NCBI GenBank assembly: GCA_910574885.1
Contig: CAJTDD010000001.1
Span: forward strand, 253,973-317,972
DNA: 64,000 bases
Origin: Lachnospiraceae bacterium
GTDB lineage: Bacteria; Bacillota; Clostridia; Lachnospirales; Lachnospiraceae
Reading direction: 5' to 3'
Shown: one piece after another, positions 19,990 to 29,030 of the stretch
How positions within the stretch are numbered: the first letter of the stretch is position 1
How the letters are laid out: each line of letters begins with the position of its first letter
Translations under genes and position numbers: made by a program
Notes under the pieces: model-generated
Told to the model about the DNA's origin: nothing
Databases searched by the model: none
The model's input: the letters and a program-made list of their open reading frames with translations, nothing else

Positions 19990-21528
19990 ATGACGAATGT
20001 TCAGGAGTACAGAGGACATATCAGAAATTGGGAGGCGCTCTGTAAAGAGCTTGAGATTTGGACCGGACTTCCAAGGGAAGACCGGGAATTACAGATTCTT
20101 ACGAAGGCTTATGAAAAATGGGGATATGACATGGCAGACCATCTGCATGGGATGTTCGCATTCGCACTGTGGGATGTAGACCGTCAGCAGCTTTTCTGCC
20201 TGCGTGACCATTTTGGGACGAAGCCGTTCTACTATTACCAGACAGAGGACGGGAAACTGCTCTATGGGACGACGATACGTAAGATTATGGAACAGCCTGG
20301 ATTCGTAAAGGAATTGAACCAGGAGATGCTGCAGATTTATCTGAGCCTGACGTATGGGGCAGGAGAGGATACCTTTTTCAAAGGCGTGAAAAAACTTCTT
20401 CCCGGACGTTACCTGATATGGAAGGACGGGGAATTGAAGATTGAACGTTATTGGAAACCGGAGTTTCACCCGGACGAGAGTAAATCTTTGGAGGACTGGG
20501 CAGATGAAATCCACACAACCCTCCAGAAAATCATGCCAGAGGTAAAGACGGCAGAGGAGCATGCGGAGTCTTTCCTTTCCGGCGGCGTGGATTCTTCTTA
20601 TGTGCTTGCCATGTCCGACATTAAGATGACGGATTCCTGCGGATATGACGAGGAACGCTTCGATGAGTCCCGGCTTGCCGCAGAAACGGCAAGAATCCTG
20701 GGACGGGAAAACTTGCGGCGTCGGATTACGCCGGAGGAATACTTCGACGCGGTTCCTTACGTGATGTACCATATGGAGCAGCCCTTGGGGGACGCCTCTT
20801 CGATTGTGTTTGCCCTTGCATGTAAGGCGGCGGCAGAGCATACGGAGATTTGTTATTCGGGGGAAGGCTCTGATGAATTCTTCGGCGGTTATAACATGTA
20901 CCGCAATGCAGAGCGTTACGGGGAGAACTTAAAGACCTTCTATGTGGGCAACACCAATATCATGAAGGAGGACGAAAAGGCACGGATTCTCAAGAATTAC
21001 TCCGAAGATGTGCTTCCGATTCATCTGGTGGAAGGAATTTACGAGGAGGCGGAAGGATTAGACCCGCTGACAAAGATGTCAGATGTGGATATCCAGATTT
21101 GGCTGGAGGGCGATATTTATCTGAATGTGGACAAGATGAGCACGGCCGCAGGGCTGGAAATCCGGATGCCTCTGACTGACCGCAGGATTTTTGACATTGC
21201 GTCGCGGATGCCTTCAAAATATAAAGTGGATAAGGAACAGAATAAGGTTGCGTTCCGGACTGCGGCGGCAAAGGTACTGCCTCAGGAAATCGCATTCCGC
21301 AAGAAGCTTGGATTCATCGTCCCGATTCGTATCTGGATGGCGGACGAACGGTATAATCAGGATGTACGTGAAAAGTTCCACAGTGAGACGGCAGAGAAAT
21401 TCTTCCATGTAGATGAGATTAATGCTATCTTTGACGAGTATGTAGGCGGGAACTCGGATAACTGGCGGAAGGTGTGGACGATTTACGCCTTTTTGGTATG
21501 GTATGAAGAGTATTTTGTGAAACGTTAA
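19990..21528 (+). CDS. AsnB-like amidotransferase synthetase lacking the N-terminal nucleophile
   Basis: The 512-residue protein has an asparagine-synthase (PP-loop) domain with FLSGGVDSSY and YSGEGSDEFFGGY. The N-terminal glutaminase region begins only at the part equal to residues 70 and up of AsnB (HGMFAFALWD, DHFGTKPFYY). The Cys1 nucleophile (MCG) and the first ~70 residues are absent, and no such sequence is found just upstream in frame. It therefore probably uses free ammonia, or acts as a ligase like beta-lactam synthetase, which also lacks Cys1. AGGAG lies 12 bases before the ATG. The gene has its own promoter and terminator but is next to the racemase/ligase cluster at 21808, where an amidation of Asp would make sense (inference). 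Confidence 0.8.
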   Translation: MTNVQEYRGHIRNWEALCKELEIWTGLPREDRELQILTKAYEKWGYDMADHLHGMFAFALWDVDRQQLFCLRDHFGTKPFYYYQTEDGKLLYGTTIRKIMEQPGFVKELNQEMLQIYLSLTYGAGEDTFFKGVKKLLPGRYLIWKDGELKIERYWKPEFHPDESKSLEDWADEIHTTLQKIMPEVKTAEEHAESFLSGGVDSSYVLAMSDIKMTDSCGYDEERFDESRLAAETARILGRENLRRRITPEEYFDAVPYVMYHMEQPLGDASSIVFALACKAAAEHTEICYSGEGSDEFFGGYNMYRNAERYGENLKTFYVGNTNIMKEDEKARILKNYSEDVLPIHLVEGIYEEAEGLDPLTKMSDVDIQIWLEGDIYLNVDKMSTAAGLEIRMPLTDRRIFDIASRMPSKYKVDKEQNKVAFRTAAAKVLPQEIAFRKKLGFIVPIRIWMADERYNQDVREKFHSETAEKFFHVDEINAIFDEYVGGNSDNWRKVWTIYAFLVWYEEYFVKR

Positions 21529-21585
21529 AAAATATCTGTTTTTTTGCAGCGCCTATTGGATGTGTCTGCCATTACTTTTTTGGGG

Positions 21586-21635
21586 ATGAAGCCATAGGGA
21601 TATGTAACAGTATCCCTATGGCTTCATTTTCGTTA
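21586..21635 (+). terminator. Strong terminator after the AsnB-like gene
   Basis: A perfect 17-bp stem, 21586-21602 (ATGAAGCCATAGGGATA) with 21611-21627, has an 8-base loop and is followed by TTTTCGTTATTTTC. It separates the AsnB-like gene from the next cluster. Confidence 0.88.
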
Positions 21636-21719: not shown

Positions 21720-21748
21720 TTGACAAACCTATTTTACCATAGTAAAAT
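21720..21748 (+). promoter_or_regulatory. Strong promoter with overlapping palindrome for the racemase/ligase cluster
   Basis: TTGACA at 21720-21725 and TAAAAT at 21743-21748 have 17-base spacing. Between -35 and -10, and including the -10, is the inverted repeat ATTTTAC-CATA-GTAAAAT (21731-21748). A protein bound there would block polymerase, so the cluster is probably repressed by an unknown regulator. Confidence 0.7.
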
Positions 21749-21807: not shown

Positions 21808-23259
21808 ATGAACACGCATAGGGAAAGCAAGTACCGCACTGGTAATGAGTATGAGTATAACTATCAGGATGATTTCGGTTATCAAGAGCCTGGCAATCCG
21901 GATATGCAGGAGTTCCCGGATTATCAGGATTCCGATTATCAGGACGGACAGGAAGAATACCTGCGGCAGCGCAAGGCACGGCAGCGCAGGCGTCTGCGCG
22001 AGGAAAAGCGGCGCAGGCGTCTACGGCGTTTAAGGATGATCCGGGCAATTATAATCGGATGTATGTTCCTTCTCCTAGCTGTCCTCGTTTTTGCGGTACG
22101 CCTGATCTTCTTCCCAGGACCCGTCCGCCGGAAAGTTACGGCAGAAGCCGGAACCCAACTGGATATCAAGGATTTCCTAAAAAAAGAGGACGTAAAAGCT
22201 GAGTTCGTGACCGATGTCTCCGAAATCAGCCTCGACCATGTAGGGGAGCATAAAATCTTATTGAAAGCCAACGGGAAGGAGAGAAAATCCCGTCTGATTA
22301 TCAAGGATACCATAGCCCCCAAAGCGAAAGCCGCCGATTCCGTGGTCAATGTGGGCGGTACGCGAAAGGCCGAAGAACTGGTCACGGATATTACGGATGC
22401 CACAGACGTAACTTGCTTCTTTGAGAAAAAACCGGATTTCTCAAAGGAAGGAACCGTATCCGTCACCGTCGTCCTGACAGATGAGGGCGGAAATAAAACA
22501 GAAGTAAAGGCGAATGTACAGGTCATCGTTGATAAAGAGGCGCCCGTCATTGACGGCGTTGCACCTTTAATTGGTTTCATCGGCGAGCCGATTTCCTATA
22601 AATCAACGATTACCGTCACGGACAACTGCACGAAACAGATTGAGGCGGCTGTGGATAACAGTCAAGTCGATACGAATACAGAAGGGGTATATCCTGTCGT
22701 CTACTCGGCAATTGACGATGCCGGGAACGAGGCGGAGGCTTCAACGACCATAACCATAAAGAAAAAACCGGAGAATTATATTACTCCGGAGGAAGCCTTA
22801 GGAGAAGCAGAAGCGGTATTGAACGAGATTACGACGAAGGACATGACCTTGAAGGAAAAAGCAAGGGCAATCTACAACTGGGCCAGGACAGAGATCGGCT
22901 ATGTGAATACTTCCGAAAAGGACAGTTGGACCAACGGGGCACATCAGGGCCTTACAGAACGGACCGGGGATTGTTATGTGTTTTTCGCCACGGCGAAAGC
23001 ATTGCTGACTCAGGCGGGAATTCCCAATCTGGACGTGGTAAAAAGTGATACCACGGAATCCAGTCATTTTTGGAGTCTGATTGACTGCGGAGACGGATGG
23101 TATCATTTCGATACTACGCCGCGCTATGGCACAGGCGACGATTTCTTTATGAAGACGGACGCCGAGATTTTGGAGTACTCCCAGAACCATGACAACAGCC
23201 ATGTGTTTGACCAAAGCTTGTATCCCGCCACGCCGACAGAAGATTCGACGATTGAATAG
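21808..23259 (+). CDS. Membrane-anchored transglutaminase-like protein with Ig-like repeats
   Basis: The 483 residues begin with a Tyr/Asp/Gln-rich cytoplasmic stretch (about 1-50), then a very Arg-rich block (52-76), one membrane helix (about 78-98), bacterial Ig-like regions (about 105-320, with DTIAPK and DKEAPV repeats) and a transglutaminase-like core. The likely triad is C389 (RTGDCYVFF), H420 (SSHFWSL) and D435 (WYHFDTTP). It acts outside the membrane, either as a protease or transferase on surface protein or wall peptide. It is the first gene after a strong promoter and 15 bases before the racemase gene, so it probably belongs to the same pathway. The substrate is unknown. Confidence 0.82.
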   Translation: MNTHRESKYRTGNEYEYNYQDDFGYQEPGNPDMQEFPDYQDSDYQDGQEEYLRQRKARQRRRLREEKRRRRLRRLRMIRAIIIGCMFLLLAVLVFAVRLIFFPGPVRRKVTAEAGTQLDIKDFLKKEDVKAEFVTDVSEISLDHVGEHKILLKANGKERKSRLIIKDTIAPKAKAADSVVNVGGTRKAEELVTDITDATDVTCFFEKKPDFSKEGTVSVTVVLTDEGGNKTEVKANVQVIVDKEAPVIDGVAPLIGFIGEPISYKSTITVTDNCTKQIEAAVDNSQVDTNTEGVYPVVYSAIDDAGNEAEASTTITIKKKPENYITPEEALGEAEAVLNEITTKDMTLKEKARAIYNWARTEIGYVNTSEKDSWTNGAHQGLTERTGDCYVFFATAKALLTQAGIPNLDVVKSDTTESSHFWSLIDCGDGWYHFDTTPRYGTGDDFFMKTDAEILEYSQNHDNSHVFDQSLYPATPTEDSTIE

Positions 23260-23274
23260 TAGGGAGCGGGATCA

Positions 23275-24012
23275 ATGGGCAGAGAGGGGCAGAAGGATAT
23301 GACTTTAGGCGTGATTGGCGGCATGGGACCCATGGCAACTGCGTATTTTATGGAACTAATCATCCGTATGACCGATGGGACGACGGACCAGGAGCATCTT
23401 CCCATGATTATTTATCATTCCCCCGGGATTACGGACAGGACGTCCTATATTCTGGGGAACAGCCAAGAGAATCCGGCCTTAGATATCATCCGAATCGGAC
23501 GCTTGCTTGCCTTGCAGGGCGCGGCATGTATCAGTATCCCATGCATTACTGCCCACTATTTCCACAAAGAACTGTCCGAACAGATTCCAATCCCGATTAT
23601 CCACGGGATACGCGAGACTGCCTTAGAGCTTCTGGAAAACCATGTGAAAAGAGCCGGTATCATGGCGACCGACGGAACGCTCCAAAGCCGCCTCTTCCAG
23701 ACGCAGTTAGAAGAGGCTGGGATTGAGCCAGTCATCCCGGCTGCCGGTTTCCAGAAGATGGTGATGGAGCTGATTTATCAGGATATAAAAGCCGGTAAGC
23801 CGGTAAGGCCAAAGCATTTCCAAAGCGTGTCCGCAAATCTTTGGGAGCGGGGCGCAGAGGTGATTATCCTTGGGTGTACCGAGCTTTCCCTGATTAAGAA
23901 GGAGTTTCCCATTGGCGAAGGATATCTGGACGCCATGGAACTGTTGGCACAGAGATCTATCCTGCAATGCCGCGGCAGGTTAAAGAAAGAGTATCAATGT
24001 TTGATTCGTTAA
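23275..24012 (+). CDS. Aspartate/glutamate racemase family protein
   Basis: PLP-independent racemase of the Asp/Glu type with the two catalytic cysteines, C90 in IPCITAH and C201 in LGCTEL; the N-terminus GVIGGMGPMAT is typical for aspartate racemases. The usual PCNTAH reads PCITAH here. It should interconvert L- and D-Asp or L- and D-Glu. ATG 23275 has AGGGAG at a fair distance; ATG 23299 (MTLGVIGG) is an alternative. Its place inside a ligase/carrier/MBOAT operon suggests that it supplies the D-amino acid for that ligase. Confidence 0.88.
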   Translation: MGREGQKDMTLGVIGGMGPMATAYFMELIIRMTDGTTDQEHLPMIIYHSPGITDRTSYILGNSQENPALDIIRIGRLLALQGAACISIPCITAHYFHKELSEQIPIPIIHGIRETALELLENHVKRAGIMATDGTLQSRLFQTQLEEAGIEPVIPAAGFQKMVMELIYQDIKAGKPVRPKHFQSVSANLWERGAEVIILGCTELSLIKKEFPIGEGYLDAMELLAQRSILQCRGRLKKEYQCLIR

Positions 24013-24028
24013 AACAGGAGTAAAGGAC

Positions 24029-25558
24029 ATGCAGAGAAATATCTTAGAATATCTGGAATGTACGGCCGGAAGGTTTCCGGATAAGATTGCATTTGCAAAT
24101 GAGGCTATGGGCATGACGTTTGGGGAAGTATCCCAGGTTTCCAGAAATATCGGGACCTGTCTCTTGAAGAGGGGATATCAGAAGGAACCTGTGGTCATCT
24201 ATATGCAGAAGCATCCCCACATGATTGCCGCGTTCTGGGGCGTGGTATACAGCAGCTGCTTCTACGTTCCCATAGATGAAGAGATGCCCAAGTTCCGGAT
24301 ATCCCTGATTTTTCAGAACCTAAAGCCCCGGGCAGTCATATGCGATGAGACCACCTGTGGGGAGATAAAGGATATCCGGGATTTTGAGGGTGAAATCCTG
24401 CTCTATGAAGAGATTGCAGAAGAACCGGAGGATTTTGGGCTGCTTGCAGCAATCCGGGACAGGGCGATTGATACCGATCCGATTTATATCGTATTCACAT
24501 CCGGCTCAACAGGCGTGCCAAAGGGTGTTTTAGCGTGCCACCGGTCTGTCATTGATTACGTAGAAAATCTCACGGAGGTATTGGGGATTACGGAAGATTC
24601 CGTTCTGGCAAACCAGACGCCATTGTATTTTGACGCCTGTTTAAAAGAGTTATTTTCCAGCTTAAAATGTGGGGCGACCACCTACCTGACCCCGAAATCA
24701 TTGTTTATGTTCCCGGTCAGGCTGGTGGAATTCCTGAATGAATACAAAATCAACACCGTCTGCTGGGTCGTCTCGGCGCTGACTATGATTTCGTCTATGA
24801 ATACATTTGACAAGATAACGCCCAAATATCTGCACACCATTGCCTTCGGCAGCGAAGTATTCCCGGTCAGGCAGTTTCGGTTGTGGAAAAAAGCCTTGCC
24901 GGACGCCCGCTTCATCAATTTATACGGGCCTACGGAGGCAACGGGAATGAGCTGCTATTACGAAGTAGAGAGGGAGTTTGAAGAAGGAGAGAGTATTCCC
25001 ATTGGACGCCCGTTCAAAAACACGGAGATCCTGCTTCTTGACGGGGATAACAAGATTCCCAAGAAGGGAGAGCCGGGAGAAATCTGTATCCGAGGCACGG
25101 CGCTGACATTGGGCTATTATAAGGATAAAGAGCGCACGGACCAGGTGTTCGTCCAGAACCCGTTGAACGACTGTTACCATGAATTAATCTACCGTACCGG
25201 AGACATTGGGAAATATAATGAATACGGGGAATTGCTTTTCCTGTCCAGAAAGGACTGCCAGATCAAACATATGGGACACCGGATTGAGCTTGGTGAGATT
25301 GAAGCCCATGTACACCAAGTGGATGGGATACACAGTGCATGTTGTATCTATGATAAGGAGAAAGAGAAGATTACCCTTTTCTACTCAGGGGTGATTGAGA
25401 CAAAGGAGCTTGTGGCCAACCTTAAAAAAACGCTGCCCAGGTACATGATACCGAATCATGTCTATTCTTTGGAGACCATGCCGCTGACGGCAAATGGGAA
25501 GGTTGACCGTACAACGCTGAAACAGATGATAAAAAGCGAGAGAACAAGGAGAGAATAA
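24029..25558 (+). CDS. Amino acid adenylation enzyme, DltA-like/NRPS-type stand-alone A domain
   Basis: The 509-residue protein is an AMP-forming amino acid ligase: P-loop FTSGSTGVPKG (156-166), FDAC with D202 (the residue that holds the amino group), NLYGPTE (297-303), YRTGD, and the catalytic Lys K491 in ANGKVDR. It should activate an amino acid and load it on the carrier protein encoded 1 base downstream. A hand alignment to GrsA PheA gives pocket residues D202, A203, K206, W246, I271, F273, L298, G306 and M307. A Lys in the pocket would suit an acidic side chain; this is inference. In dlt systems the partner is D-Ala, but here a D-Asp/D-Glu type racemase is adjacent. Confidence 0.85.
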   Translation: MQRNILEYLECTAGRFPDKIAFANEAMGMTFGEVSQVSRNIGTCLLKRGYQKEPVVIYMQKHPHMIAAFWGVVYSSCFYVPIDEEMPKFRISLIFQNLKPRAVICDETTCGEIKDIRDFEGEILLYEEIAEEPEDFGLLAAIRDRAIDTDPIYIVFTSGSTGVPKGVLACHRSVIDYVENLTEVLGITEDSVLANQTPLYFDACLKELFSSLKCGATTYLTPKSLFMFPVRLVEFLNEYKINTVCWVVSALTMISSMNTFDKITPKYLHTIAFGSEVFPVRQFRLWKKALPDARFINLYGPTEATGMSCYYEVEREFEEGESIPIGRPFKNTEILLLDGDNKIPKKGEPGEICIRGTALTLGYYKDKERTDQVFVQNPLNDCYHELIYRTGDIGKYNEYGELLFLSRKDCQIKHMGHRIELGEIEAHVHQVDGIHSACCIYDKEKEKITLFYSGVIETKELVANLKKTLPRYMIPNHVYSLETMPLTANGKVDRTTLKQMIKSERTRRE

Positions 25559-25559
25559 G

Positions 25560-25787
25560 ATGGATGCTTTATTGGAAATTTTAACGGGCCTGCACCCAGA
25601 GGTGGATTTTGAGGCTTGTAATACACTGGTGGACGATAGTATCATTGATTCCTTTGATATCGTCTCGATTGTTTCCGAGATTAACGACGCGTATGATGTG
25701 GTAATCCCGGCAGAGGAAATCATACCGGATAATTTTAACTCCGCCAGGGCTTTGTATGAGTTAATTCTCCGTCTGGAAGACGAGTAG
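25560..25787 (+). CDS. Acyl/peptidyl carrier protein, DltC-like
   Basis: A 75-residue, acidic four-helix carrier with the phosphopantetheine site DSFDIVSI, Ser31. AAGGAG lies about 9 bases before ATG 25560; the gap to the ligase gene is 1 base and to the MBOAT gene 7 bases. It would present the activated amino acid to the membrane acyltransferase, as DltC does for DltB. Confidence 0.9.
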   Translation: MDALLEILTGLHPEVDFEACNTLVDDSIIDSFDIVSIVSEINDAYDVVIPAEEIIPDNFNSARALYELILRLEDE

Positions 25788-25794
25788 GCGCGCT

Positions 25795-27390
25795 ATGCTG
25801 TTTACGTCCTACCGATTTATTGGGTTTATGGCAGCCGTATTTCTGCTGTATTACCTGCTCCCTAAGAAATGCCAATGGCCGTTCCTGCTTGCGGCAAGTT
25901 ATACGTTCTACTATATTGCAAACCCATACTATCTGATTTTCATTGGCGTGACCACGGTTTCTACGTATGCGGTAAGCCTGCGGATTGATGCATGGAAGGA
26001 ACGGCAGGACGCTTATCTGAAATCACACAAGGATACGCTGAACCGGGAGGAAAAGAAGGCGTATAAGGCCTCTGTGAAAGCAAAACAGTGGAGGTGGCTG
26101 CTTCTCTGCCTGGTCTTCAATCTGGGGATTCTTGCAGTATTAAAGTATACCAACTTCATGATTGCCAATCTGAACGGACTCCTTGAGGCTTTCGGGAGGG
26201 GCGGCAGGATTTCGTTCGCAGACCTTATTCTGCCCATGGGGATTTCGTTTTATACGTTCCAGACCATGGGCTACATCATTGACGTGTACCGGGGGACATG
26301 CCGGGCGGAAAAGAATCTGTTCCGGCTGGCTTTGTTCGTGTCGTTTTTTCCGCAGTTGGTGCAGGGACCTATCAGCAGGTACAACGACCTTGCAAAGTCC
26401 CTCTATGAGAGGCACGATTTTGATACAAAGACCGTATCTTACGGGTTGTACCGTATCCTTTGGGGGTATTTCAAGAAAGTTGTTGTCGCCGACCGGATTC
26501 TGGCTGCCGTGAATACAATCATAAATGACCCGGAAACCTATCAGGGCGGATTCGTGTTCGTGGGCATGCTGTTCTATGCATTAGAACTATATGCCGACTT
26601 TACCGGAGGCATAGACATTACCATCGGAATTGCCGAGACCATGGGGATTACGGTAACAGAGAACTTCCGGCGTCCTTACCTCTCTAAGAACATCAAGGAA
26701 TACTGGAAACGGTGGCACATTACGATGGGAACATGGTTCACGGATTATATTTTTTATCCCATATCTGTGTGTAAGCCTATGCTGAAGCTTTCCAAGTTCT
26801 CACGGAGAAAGCTTGGCGACTTCATCGGGAAGCGGGTTCCGGTGTATCTGGCTTCCTTTGCGGTCTGGTTCACGACAGGAATCTGGCATGGGGCAAGCTG
26901 GAATTTTATCGTCTGGGGACTGATGAATTTCGTGGTAATCATGGTCTCTCAGGAATGTGAACCGCTATATGGGAAATTCCATGCCAGATTTGACGTCAAA
27001 GGGAAAAAATGGTATGGGGCTTTTGAAATTATAAGGACTATATTCCTGATGAGCAGCCTGCGTATGTTTGACTGTTATCGGGATGTACCGCTTACATTCC
27101 GTATGTTCGGAAATATGTTCTCCCATTTCCGGCTGCAGGATTTGACCAAAGAAGCATTCTTAGGGCTTGGGCTTACGGGGGCGGACTACATCGTATTATT
27201 CATCTGCCTTGCAGTGATGGTTACAGTAAGCCTGACACAGGAGAGGAAGGGGAGTGTGCGGGATCTGATATATGCATCGCCGGAGATTTTCAGGTATGTG
27301 GTTTTCCTTATGATGGTACTGTCAGTCGTTATTTTCGGGGCATACGGAATCGGTTACGACCAGAGCCAGTTTATTTATAATCAGTTTTAG
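25795..27390 (+). CDS. MBOAT family O-acyltransferase (DltB/AlgI type)
   Basis: A polytopic membrane protein of 531 residues, with many hydrophobic helices. The MBOAT hallmark is H365 in TGIWHGASWNF; other family stretches are FPQLVQGPISR, ADFTGGIDI and NFRRPYLSKNIKEYWKRWH. It should move the aminoacyl group from the carrier through the membrane to an outside acceptor. It is longer than typical DltB (about 400) and closer to AlgI length. The ribosome site is weak and the gene starts 7 bases after the carrier gene, so translation may be coupled. Confidence 0.9.
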   Translation: MLFTSYRFIGFMAAVFLLYYLLPKKCQWPFLLAASYTFYYIANPYYLIFIGVTTVSTYAVSLRIDAWKERQDAYLKSHKDTLNREEKKAYKASVKAKQWRWLLLCLVFNLGILAVLKYTNFMIANLNGLLEAFGRGGRISFADLILPMGISFYTFQTMGYIIDVYRGTCRAEKNLFRLALFVSFFPQLVQGPISRYNDLAKSLYERHDFDTKTVSYGLYRILWGYFKKVVVADRILAAVNTIINDPETYQGGFVFVGMLFYALELYADFTGGIDITIGIAETMGITVTENFRRPYLSKNIKEYWKRWHITMGTWFTDYIFYPISVCKPMLKLSKFSRRKLGDFIGKRVPVYLASFAVWFTTGIWHGASWNFIVWGLMNFVVIMVSQECEPLYGKFHARFDVKGKKWYGAFEIIRTIFLMSSLRMFDCYRDVPLTFRMFGNMFSHFRLQDLTKEAFLGLGLTGADYIVLFICLAVMVTVSLTQERKGSVRDLIYASPEIFRYVVFLMMVLSVVIFGAYGIGYDQSQFIYNQF

Positions 27391-27425
27391 ATTCATGCAA
27401 TACCGTATCGTTTAGGAGGAGACAA

Positions 27426-28493
27426 ATGCGAAGGAAGAAGATGCCTGCATGGGTTCCAAAGATTACCGTATTTTTTGCGGCGTTATTTGCCATATTATTT
27501 TTCCTGCAAAGGCTTCTGATGCCGAAATATATGACCGATATCGTAGAAGGCGCGCTGACTGCCGAGTATTATGAGGAGACCACGAATCACGAGGTGCTGT
27601 TTGTGGGGGACTGCGAGGTCTATGAAAATTTTTCGCCTATCACCCTATATCAGGAGTATGGAATCAGCAGCTACATCCGTGGTTCCGCCCAACAGCTTGC
27701 ATGGCAGTCTTACTATATGCTGGAGGATACCCTTCGTTACGAAACGCCGAAAGTCGTTGTATTCAATGTGTTGGCGCTGAAATATGACGAGCCCCAGAGC
27801 GAGGCGTATAACCGCATGACGCTTGATGGGATGCGGTTTTCACGTACGAAAATAGATGCAGTCAAAGCGTCCATGACCAAAAATGAGAACTTGCTGGATT
27901 ATCTGTTCCCGATTCTGCGGTATCATTCCCGTTGGCCTGAATTGTCGGCGGAAGATTTTCAATACCTGTTCCACAGGGACAAGATTTCCCACAACGGCTA
28001 TTATATGCGGGTGGATGTCCGCCCTGCCGAAGGATTTCCCGAACCGGACATTCTGGCAGATTACACTCTGGGCAGTTATGCCATGGGATATCTGGATCGG
28101 ATGCGGGAATTATGCGAGGCTAACAATATAGCGTTAGTCCTTGTTAAGTCCCCGAGCCTGTACCCTCATTGGTACGACGAGTGGGACGCCCAGATTGCCG
28201 CATACGCCGGGGAATACGGGCTGGATTATTTTAATTATGAAAACCTTGCCGGGACGGTAGGAATCGACTATCAGACAGATACCTACGACGCCGGGCTGCA
28301 CCTGAACCTTGCCGGCGCAGAGAAGCTTACCGGATATTTAGGTAAATATCTGAAAGAAGCTTACCAGCTTACAGACTACCGATACGACCCGGATTATCAG
28401 AGTGCCTATGCCAAAAAAATCCGTTTTTACGAGGAGATGGAAGCCGCCCAGCGCGAGGAACTGAGAGCGTATGGGGAAATCAGAAGTTTTTAG
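27426..28493 (+). CDS. SGNH-like membrane-anchored protein (DltD/AlgJ-like) with Cys in the nucleophile position
   Basis: The 355-residue protein has one N-terminal membrane segment (about 11-32) and an outside SGNH-like domain. The first block reads VGDCEVYENFSP, where C63 is at the place of the catalytic Ser in GDSE. The last block has D288 and H292 (DAGLHLN) as Asp/His of the triad. It takes the DltD position after an MBOAT gene and probably completes transfer of the aminoacyl group to the surface polymer. Whether Cys63 is active as a nucleophile is unknown. GGAGG lies ahead of the ATG. Confidence 0.75.
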   Translation: MRRKKMPAWVPKITVFFAALFAILFFLQRLLMPKYMTDIVEGALTAEYYEETTNHEVLFVGDCEVYENFSPITLYQEYGISSYIRGSAQQLAWQSYYMLEDTLRYETPKVVVFNVLALKYDEPQSEAYNRMTLDGMRFSRTKIDAVKASMTKNENLLDYLFPILRYHSRWPELSAEDFQYLFHRDKISHNGYYMRVDVRPAEGFPEPDILADYTLGSYAMGYLDRMRELCEANNIALVLVKSPSLYPHWYDEWDAQIAAYAGEYGLDYFNYENLAGTVGIDYQTDTYDAGLHLNLAGAEKLTGYLGKYLKEAYQLTDYRYDPDYQSAYAKKIRFYEEMEAAQREELRAYGEIRSF

Positions 28494-28517
28494 AATGTGA
28501 AACAAAGGAGGAAAAGT

Positions 28518-29030
28518 ATGAAGAGCAGAAAAGATATGTTAGCGGCAGCGCTGTTAACGGTTGTGTTATGTATCGCCGGATGCGGAAGTCCGGACAAGGA
28601 GGGAACATCCGGAGAAGCTTCTTCCGGCGGCGGATACTCCTTCGCCAGCGGCTCCACGAAAATCGAGATGGGAAAAGATGCGTCGAAGATCGTGGAATCA
28701 TTAGGAGACGCAGATGATTATTTCGAGTCGGAGAGCTGCGCTTTTGAAGGGCTTGATAAAGTGTATTCCTATCCTGGGTTCAAACTGAACACTTATCCTA
28801 AGGACGGCAAAGATTATGTATTATCCGTTGTGTTCATGGATGACACGGTTTCCACGGAGGAAGGCGTCAGCATTGGAAGCACGAAGGATGAAGTAACGAA
28901 AGCCTACGGGGATGCGTCGGAAGAATCCGCATCCAAGCTGGTCTACGAGGATGGGGATACGAAGATGACGATAGGGCTGAATGGAGACAGTGTTTCTTCT
29001 CTGGAAATCAGCGCTGTGGTAGAAGAGTAA
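28518..29030 (+). CDS. Lipoprotein of unknown function
   Basis: A 170-residue protein with signal peptide and lipobox IAGC (Cys22), a Gly/Ser-rich linker and a domain with two similar halves (GKDASKIVESLGDADDY and GSTKDEVTKAYGDASEE), reminiscent of the SmpA/BLIP-like fold. AGGAGG sets ATG 28518. It is the last gene of the racemase/ligase cluster, 24 bases after the SGNH-like gene. It may bind the surface polymer or the assembly complex (inference). Confidence 0.75.
   Translation: MKSRKDMLAAALLTVVLCIAGCGSPDKEGTSGEASSGGGYSFASGSTKIEMGKDASKIVESLGDADDYFESESCAFEGLDKVYSYPGFKLNTYPKDGKDYVLSVVFMDDTVSTEEGVSIGSTKDEVTKAYGDASEESASKLVYEDGDTKMTIGLNGDSVSSLEISAVVEE

Follow-up and report, generated by a model that had tools for sequence, protein, structure and literature searches.

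A conserved Dlt-like operon of Clostridia that may attach an acidic D-amino acid to the cell envelope

We consider a seven-gene operon at positions 21808-29030 on the + strand of a 64,000-nt stretch of DNA from a Lachnospiraceae bacterium (the whole stretch that was analyzed is called the window). In order, the genes encode a transglutaminase-like protein (TGase), an Asp/Glu-type racemase, a stand-alone adenylation enzyme (the ligase), a carrier, an MBOAT acyltransferase, an SGNH-like protein and a lipoprotein. The operon is a real and conserved variant of MBOAT-SGNH envelope acylation; both parts of such an acyltransferase pair are present, an MBOAT domain with a C-terminal FXYXXF motif and a partner with the SGNH fold. 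Judging from the sequences, we think it on balance probable that the operon carries out a Dlt-like aminoacylation of the envelope with an acidic D-amino acid, for which D-Asp is the likeliest candidate and D-Glu the next.

All seven genes are open on the + strand, with spacings of 15, 16, 1, 7, 35 and 3 bases, which confirms the initial annotation of seven adjacent genes with gaps of 1-35 bases. One question is "is this gene set more than a chance neighborhood?" A scan of genome contigs with the ligase, one genome per species over 84,980 species, gives 81 matches, the best 80 of which are kept as named loci (labelled Lachnospiraceae, Oscillospiraceae, other Clostridia or Bacillota). Around these 80 ligases we find the TGase in 74, the carrier in 72, the MBOAT in 71, the SGNH protein in 64, the lipoprotein in 62, the racemase in 50 and an AsnB-like protein in 8, counts that are affected by some loci being cut off at contig ends. 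The most frequent order is TGase-(racemase)-ligase-carrier-MBOAT-SGNH-lipoprotein. Because these neighbors recur around 80 homologues of the ligase, the set is not a product of chance. A fairer sample, though drawn from one family, comes from a search with the SGNH alignment through 250 genomes of the window's family: 52 of the 250 have a strong match (at least 335 bits, a cut set by eye), and the next match is at 247 bits. In these 52 genomes (chassis genomes in the following; the surroundings are examined for all of them, the window included) the TGase is found in 45, the MBOAT in 51, the SGNH protein in 52 and the lipoprotein in 43. A survey of gene neighborhoods, which the initial annotation had called for, thus gives a conserved cluster in both samples.

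The ligase (24029..25558) scores above the cut-offs of TIGR01733, the general model for amino acid adenylation (322.2 bits, cut-off 317.4), and of the AMP-binding model (214.8 bits, cut-off 29.9). Its pocket positions are assigned through the core motifs using the GrsA numbering. The resulting pocket, DAKCAGLGMK, is found in 70 of 81 ligases (the window and the 80 located through ligase similarity), and the Lys at position 239, Lys206 of the window ligase (codon 24644..24646) and the predicted anchor of a side-chain carboxylate, is kept in 81/81; this uniformity is biased, since the ligase itself served as the query for the 80 named loci. The initial annotation had proposed a comparison of the pocket with those of DltA and of Asp/Glu-specific enzymes. 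The canonical DltA of the relative L083, which is above the DltA cut-off, has the pocket DLMVLCTVAK (read by eye), and the window ligase differs from it at eight of ten positions. Two papers (PMC10548584, PMC3207962) assign the code DAKDLGVV to Glu/Asp and DLTKVGHI to Asp. The window pocket is thus unlike that of DltA and has Lys at 239, a residue that suggests an acidic side chain, while the remaining pocket code leaves Asp versus Glu undecided. The window genome also contains a second DltA-like adenylation enzyme (L084), whose 318 bits fall short of the cut-off. Downstream of it come a separate carrier and a thioesterase-like protein, and this set may belong to a small-molecule pathway.

The racemase (23275..24012) passes TIGR00035 (202.4 bits, cut-off 93.1) and Asp_Glu_race (132 bits, cut-off 31), and its best alignment is to 1JFL, the aspartate racemase of Pyrococcus. 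By this alignment the catalytic residues are C90 and C201 and the acid-binding ones R55 and K172, where Arg48 and Lys164 of 1JFL are presumably the binders of the side-chain acid; both cysteines expected from the initial annotation of a two-cysteine Asp/Glu racemase between the first gene and the ligase are there. The equivalents of C82, C194, R48 and K164 of 1JFL are kept in 75/75 operon racemases. In a tree (FastTree, midpoint root), 74 of these 75 group together with three racemases encoded on other contigs of chassis genomes (local support 0.79), and this group contains none of 30 background racemases from the same bacterial family. The latter represent 30 of the 43 genomes that have a racemase but no chassis and were chosen mostly by rank order. 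The racemase of L074 falls outside the main group, and the smallest group that holds all 75 includes 11 others. The racemase thus appears to be an operon-linked lineage, with a substrate that could differ somewhat from Asp.

The presence of the racemase follows the type of pocket. A TIGR00035 racemase over the cut-off is found anywhere in 36/52 chassis genomes versus 43/198 others; within the 52 it lies within 10 kb of the cluster in 25 and elsewhere in 11, and none is over the cut-off in 16. The ligase pockets of the 52 clusters are of the DAKC type in 27 and of other types in 11; in the remaining 14, some of which lie at contig ends, the stretch examined has an incomplete ligase or none. The racemase lies beside the ligase in 24 of the 27 with a DAKC pocket versus 0 of the 11 with another pocket (Fisher 3e-7, ancestry uncorrected).

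The MBOAT (25795..27390; PF03062 59.8 bits, cut-off 27) has a DltB-related core (DltB 6BUG, E 1e-22), with 151.9 bits against the 375 required by the DltB equivalog TIGR04091. Its C-terminus carries the motif FIYNQF (27370..27387), and FXYXXF is found at this place in 65 of 68 complete relatives. The acyl-shuttle mechanism of FXYXXF is described for PatA and DltX in PMC12148441; here the MBOAT itself carries the shuttle motif as a fusion, even though the operon has a carrier. The intergenic gaps of at most 35 bases leave no room for a separate DltX in the operon; no search for one was made elsewhere in the genome. The carrier (25560..25787, 75 aa) has the phosphopantetheine site DSFD, with [DN]S[FLIM][DA] kept in 71/72 relatives; it scores 20.4 bits, just below the PF00550 cut-off of 20.8, and falls short of the DltC models (22.1 of 68 and 15.2 of 52.35 bits).

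The SGNH partner (27426..28493) has a predicted N-terminal membrane anchor and Cys63 (codon 27612..27614) in the position of the catalytic Ser; the motif GDCE is found in 63 of 64 named relatives. Its GDSL-type score of 18.1 bits is under the cut-off of 32.9, and the fold is supported by a predicted structure made with the alignment and by the structural matches of that model. These matches indicate the fold and not the function, because the top ones include designed scaffolds and general esterases. A model made without the alignment (pLDDT 45.5) is not used, and a PDB sequence search with the SGNH alignment returns one unrelated match (E 0.018). The TGase accompanies the Cys-type SGNH protein in 44 of 48 clusters versus 1 of 4 with the Ser type, and thioesters are good donors to amines. 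Both points would suit an aminoacyl group that goes to a surface protein, a lipid or a TGase-made cross-link, with the thioester on the SGNH Cys as a donor to amines. We regard this as unlikely: the MBOAT/SGNH pairs treated in PMC12148441 O-acylate polymers, and the TGase is kept in eight clusters that have no recognizable carrier or ligase, so its presence does not depend on the amino acid.

For the aminoacylation with an acidic D-amino acid, the steps would be as follows. The racemase would turn L-Asp into D-Asp (D-Glu being the second choice). The ligase would activate this acid, with Lys239 gripping the side-chain carboxylate, and load it onto the small carrier. The MBOAT would then carry the acyl group across the membrane by acylating the Tyr of its own FIYNQF, and Cys63 of the SGNH protein would accept it as a thioester, where a serine ester is the usual form, and hand it on to the acceptor, an envelope polymer to which it would probably be attached as an ester. 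The transglutaminase-like protein and the lipoprotein would be accessory outer parts. Much of this route, from ligase through carrier and MBOAT to the SGNH protein and fed by a racemase of acidic amino acids, was already proposed in the initial annotation, and it is consistent with the pocket with Lys239, with the conserved Arg and Lys of the racemase and with the racemase-pocket association (with few contrasts). The sequences show the gene set, its conservation and the motifs, and a model shows the SGNH fold; the substrate, its stereochemistry, each transfer step and the acceptor are what we infer. As to the acceptor, the window genome (a draft, 96% complete with 7.9% contamination) encodes one TagF-like protein and two proteins of the Sulfatase family, one of them LtaS-like by eye, and has no DltA or DltB over the cut-off. 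A teichoic or LtaS-type polymer is therefore possible.

Several observations weigh against D-Asp, or against the route as a whole. The ligase pocket has just D, A, K and G in common with the Glu code DAKDLGVV, and it does not match the Asp code. In the racemase, the first Cys is followed by Ile, Val or Met in 72/75 operon enzymes, whereas this residue is Asn in 29/30 background rows (including all 18 with the first Cys in register; in the other 12 of the 30 that Cys is out of register in the alignment), and therefore the substrate or the kinetics may differ from those of an ordinary Asp racemase. The SGNH tree gives one (supported branches) to three (all branches) independent racemase/pocket contrasts; these are too few, so the Fisher value is inflated and ancestry explains much of it. 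Thirty of the 80 named loci have no racemase nearby. Twenty genomes of these 30 were tested, and 16 have a TIGR00035 racemase elsewhere while 4 have none over the cut-off anywhere. The racemases encoded elsewhere (those 16 and one from the genome of L102) are of the ordinary Asn type in 17/17; this may reflect a need for the D-form from outside the cluster. By contrast, L085 (DAKCAVLGVK) and L090 (DAKCTVLGVK) have near-identical pockets and no racemase over the cut-off in the genome. On the outer side, Cys at the nucleophile position of the SGNH protein could mean a loss of the classical activity, and a canonical DltB is found beside the chassis in 2/52 genomes, one of them from the window's genus, so the two systems can coexist and the operon is no simple replacement of Dlt.

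The loss of the Asn from the CNT motif of the racemase leads to one alternative, in which the same machine handles another acidic group, either D-Glu or a rarer one such as cysteate or aminoadipate. We give this a lesser but appreciable chance. The pocket with K239 is closest to the Glu code; D-Glu, on the other hand, is expected from the murein glutamate racemase, a supply that would make a dedicated racemase redundant. For cysteate, the window racemase scores 190.3 against the cut-off of 190 of the CuyB cysteate racemase model NF052483, and 4/6 operon relatives pass; 5/5 racemases outside such operons pass as well, so the model is not selective, and the operon enzyme may or may not be a cysteate racemase. 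A second alternative is a Dlt homologue for D-Ala (or an L-amino acid), with the racemase as a passenger or as an enzyme of peptidoglycan or other metabolism. It would account for the loci without a nearby racemase and for the likeness of the ligase to DltA over its full length (TIGR01734, 274.5 bits). That score, however, is far from the required 559.85, the pocket is not that of the canonical DltA, and the operon racemases group separately from the background ones, so that we find this explanation quite improbable. An acidic D-amino acid, D-Asp before D-Glu, is the reading that we retain.

The TGase, MBOAT, SGNH protein and lipoprotein recur in most of the clusters with varying pockets, and the outer part thus resembles a chassis on which donor modules can be exchanged. 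Other adenylation pockets are found on the same chassis in L086, L087, L089, L091-L093, L099, L100, L103, L106 and L111. The ligases of L087, L089, L091 and L093 are without Asp235. Its absence usually points to a substrate that has no alpha-amino group, and these ligases may activate acids of that kind; envelope acyl groups that have yet to be described may hide among the clusters with other pockets. L088, L094-L098, L105 and L108 have the chassis with the TGase and no recognizable ligase or carrier in the stretch examined, and are perhaps fed by acyl-CoA. In L019 (6214-11506) a carrier, a racemase and a ligase lie beside a Ser-type SGNH protein and its MBOAT, without TGase or lipoprotein, and the donor module may thus move to another chassis. 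As a tentative generalization, possible rather than probable in our estimate, Clostridia could have a plug-in acylation chassis (TGase, shuttle-fused MBOAT, Cys-dependent SGNH protein and lipoprotein) that takes exchangeable donors, and in the window it would use D-Asp, passed on through acyl-Tyr and a thioester, to add acidic groups to the surface, much as other bacteria use D-Ala to mask charge. The fused shuttle motif, the Cys nucleophile and the seemingly exchangeable donor module were no part of the initial annotation.

The remaining genes and the upstream boundary are as follows. The transglutaminase-like protein (21808..23259; Transglut_core 43.1 bits, cut-off 23) has a predicted membrane anchor (read by eye) and Ig-like domains, and its motif G[DN]C[YFW] followed by HxW is found in 72 of 74 relatives; tandem transglutaminase-like genes head the operon in L021, L037, L080, L114, L118 and L125. 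The lipoprotein (28497..29030), the last gene, matches no family above the cut-off in the domain-library searches. Ahead of the operon is a sigma-70-like promoter, TTGACA-17-TAAAAT (21720..21748, + strand), with 60 bases between its end and the first start codon. In line with the single promoter of the initial annotation, it is the best of 18 matches in the stretch (11/12, a consensus match only), where shuffles yield 14.7 matches of any quality. Further upstream is a terminator-like hairpin (21583..21630, + strand; 20 pairs and a T-rich tail), a pattern match only from a scan that finds 8 such sites of any quality versus 10.2 expected.

Beyond this hairpin is an AsnB-like gene (19990-21528), which the initial annotation had drawn into the pathway with an amide as the possible product. 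We reject this, since the hairpin makes it a separate unit and the N-terminal region with the glutaminase Cys is missing: the gene is open from 19990 only, with no in-frame start upstream. The protein is perhaps ammonia-dependent or in another role, and the nearest relative has an AsnB-like gene of the same length that lacks the same region (L003:5624-7162). A full-length AsnB starting with MCGI, from which that of the window is distant (115-142 bits), sits within the operon in a subgroup (e.g., L043, L050, L066, L068). Leaving out the AsnB of the window and an opposite-strand one in L117, an AsnB is in the operon in 5/25 clusters with a racemase versus 0/27 others (p 0.02, ancestry uncorrected), and amidation is therefore possible for that subgroup.

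If the proposed aminoacylation is correct, some members of a common bacterial family use a Dlt-like route to put an acidic group on their surface. This would change the surface charge in a different direction from D-alanine and would be relevant to peptide resistance, host recognition and phage binding. A thioester on Cys would stand in for the ester on Ser in an SGNH transferase. Canonical DltB is over the cut-off in 12/250 genomes of the family, compared with the 52/250 that have the chassis SGNH protein. No description of such a cluster was found in the open-access PMC literature, which is weak evidence of novelty.

Compared with known systems, the operon has in common with Dlt (DltA, DltC, DltB, DltX, DltD) the stand-alone adenylation enzyme, the separate carrier, the DltB-like MBOAT, the SGNH protein and FXYXXF. 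It differs from Dlt in its acid-type pocket, its own racemase, the Cys in place of Ser and the added TGase and lipoprotein; the shuttle motif is on the MBOAT and not on a DltX microprotein, and the cut-offs of the DltA, DltB and DltC models are missed. In the PatA/PatB system of peptidoglycan O-acetylation, PatA uses acetyl-CoA (PMC12148441) and PatB uses Ser, whereas the window operon has a ligase and a carrier. With 1JFL and the TIGR00035 relatives the operon racemases have both cysteines and the acid-binding Arg and Lys in common, and they differ from 1JFL-type racemases in the replaced Asn and in grouping apart.

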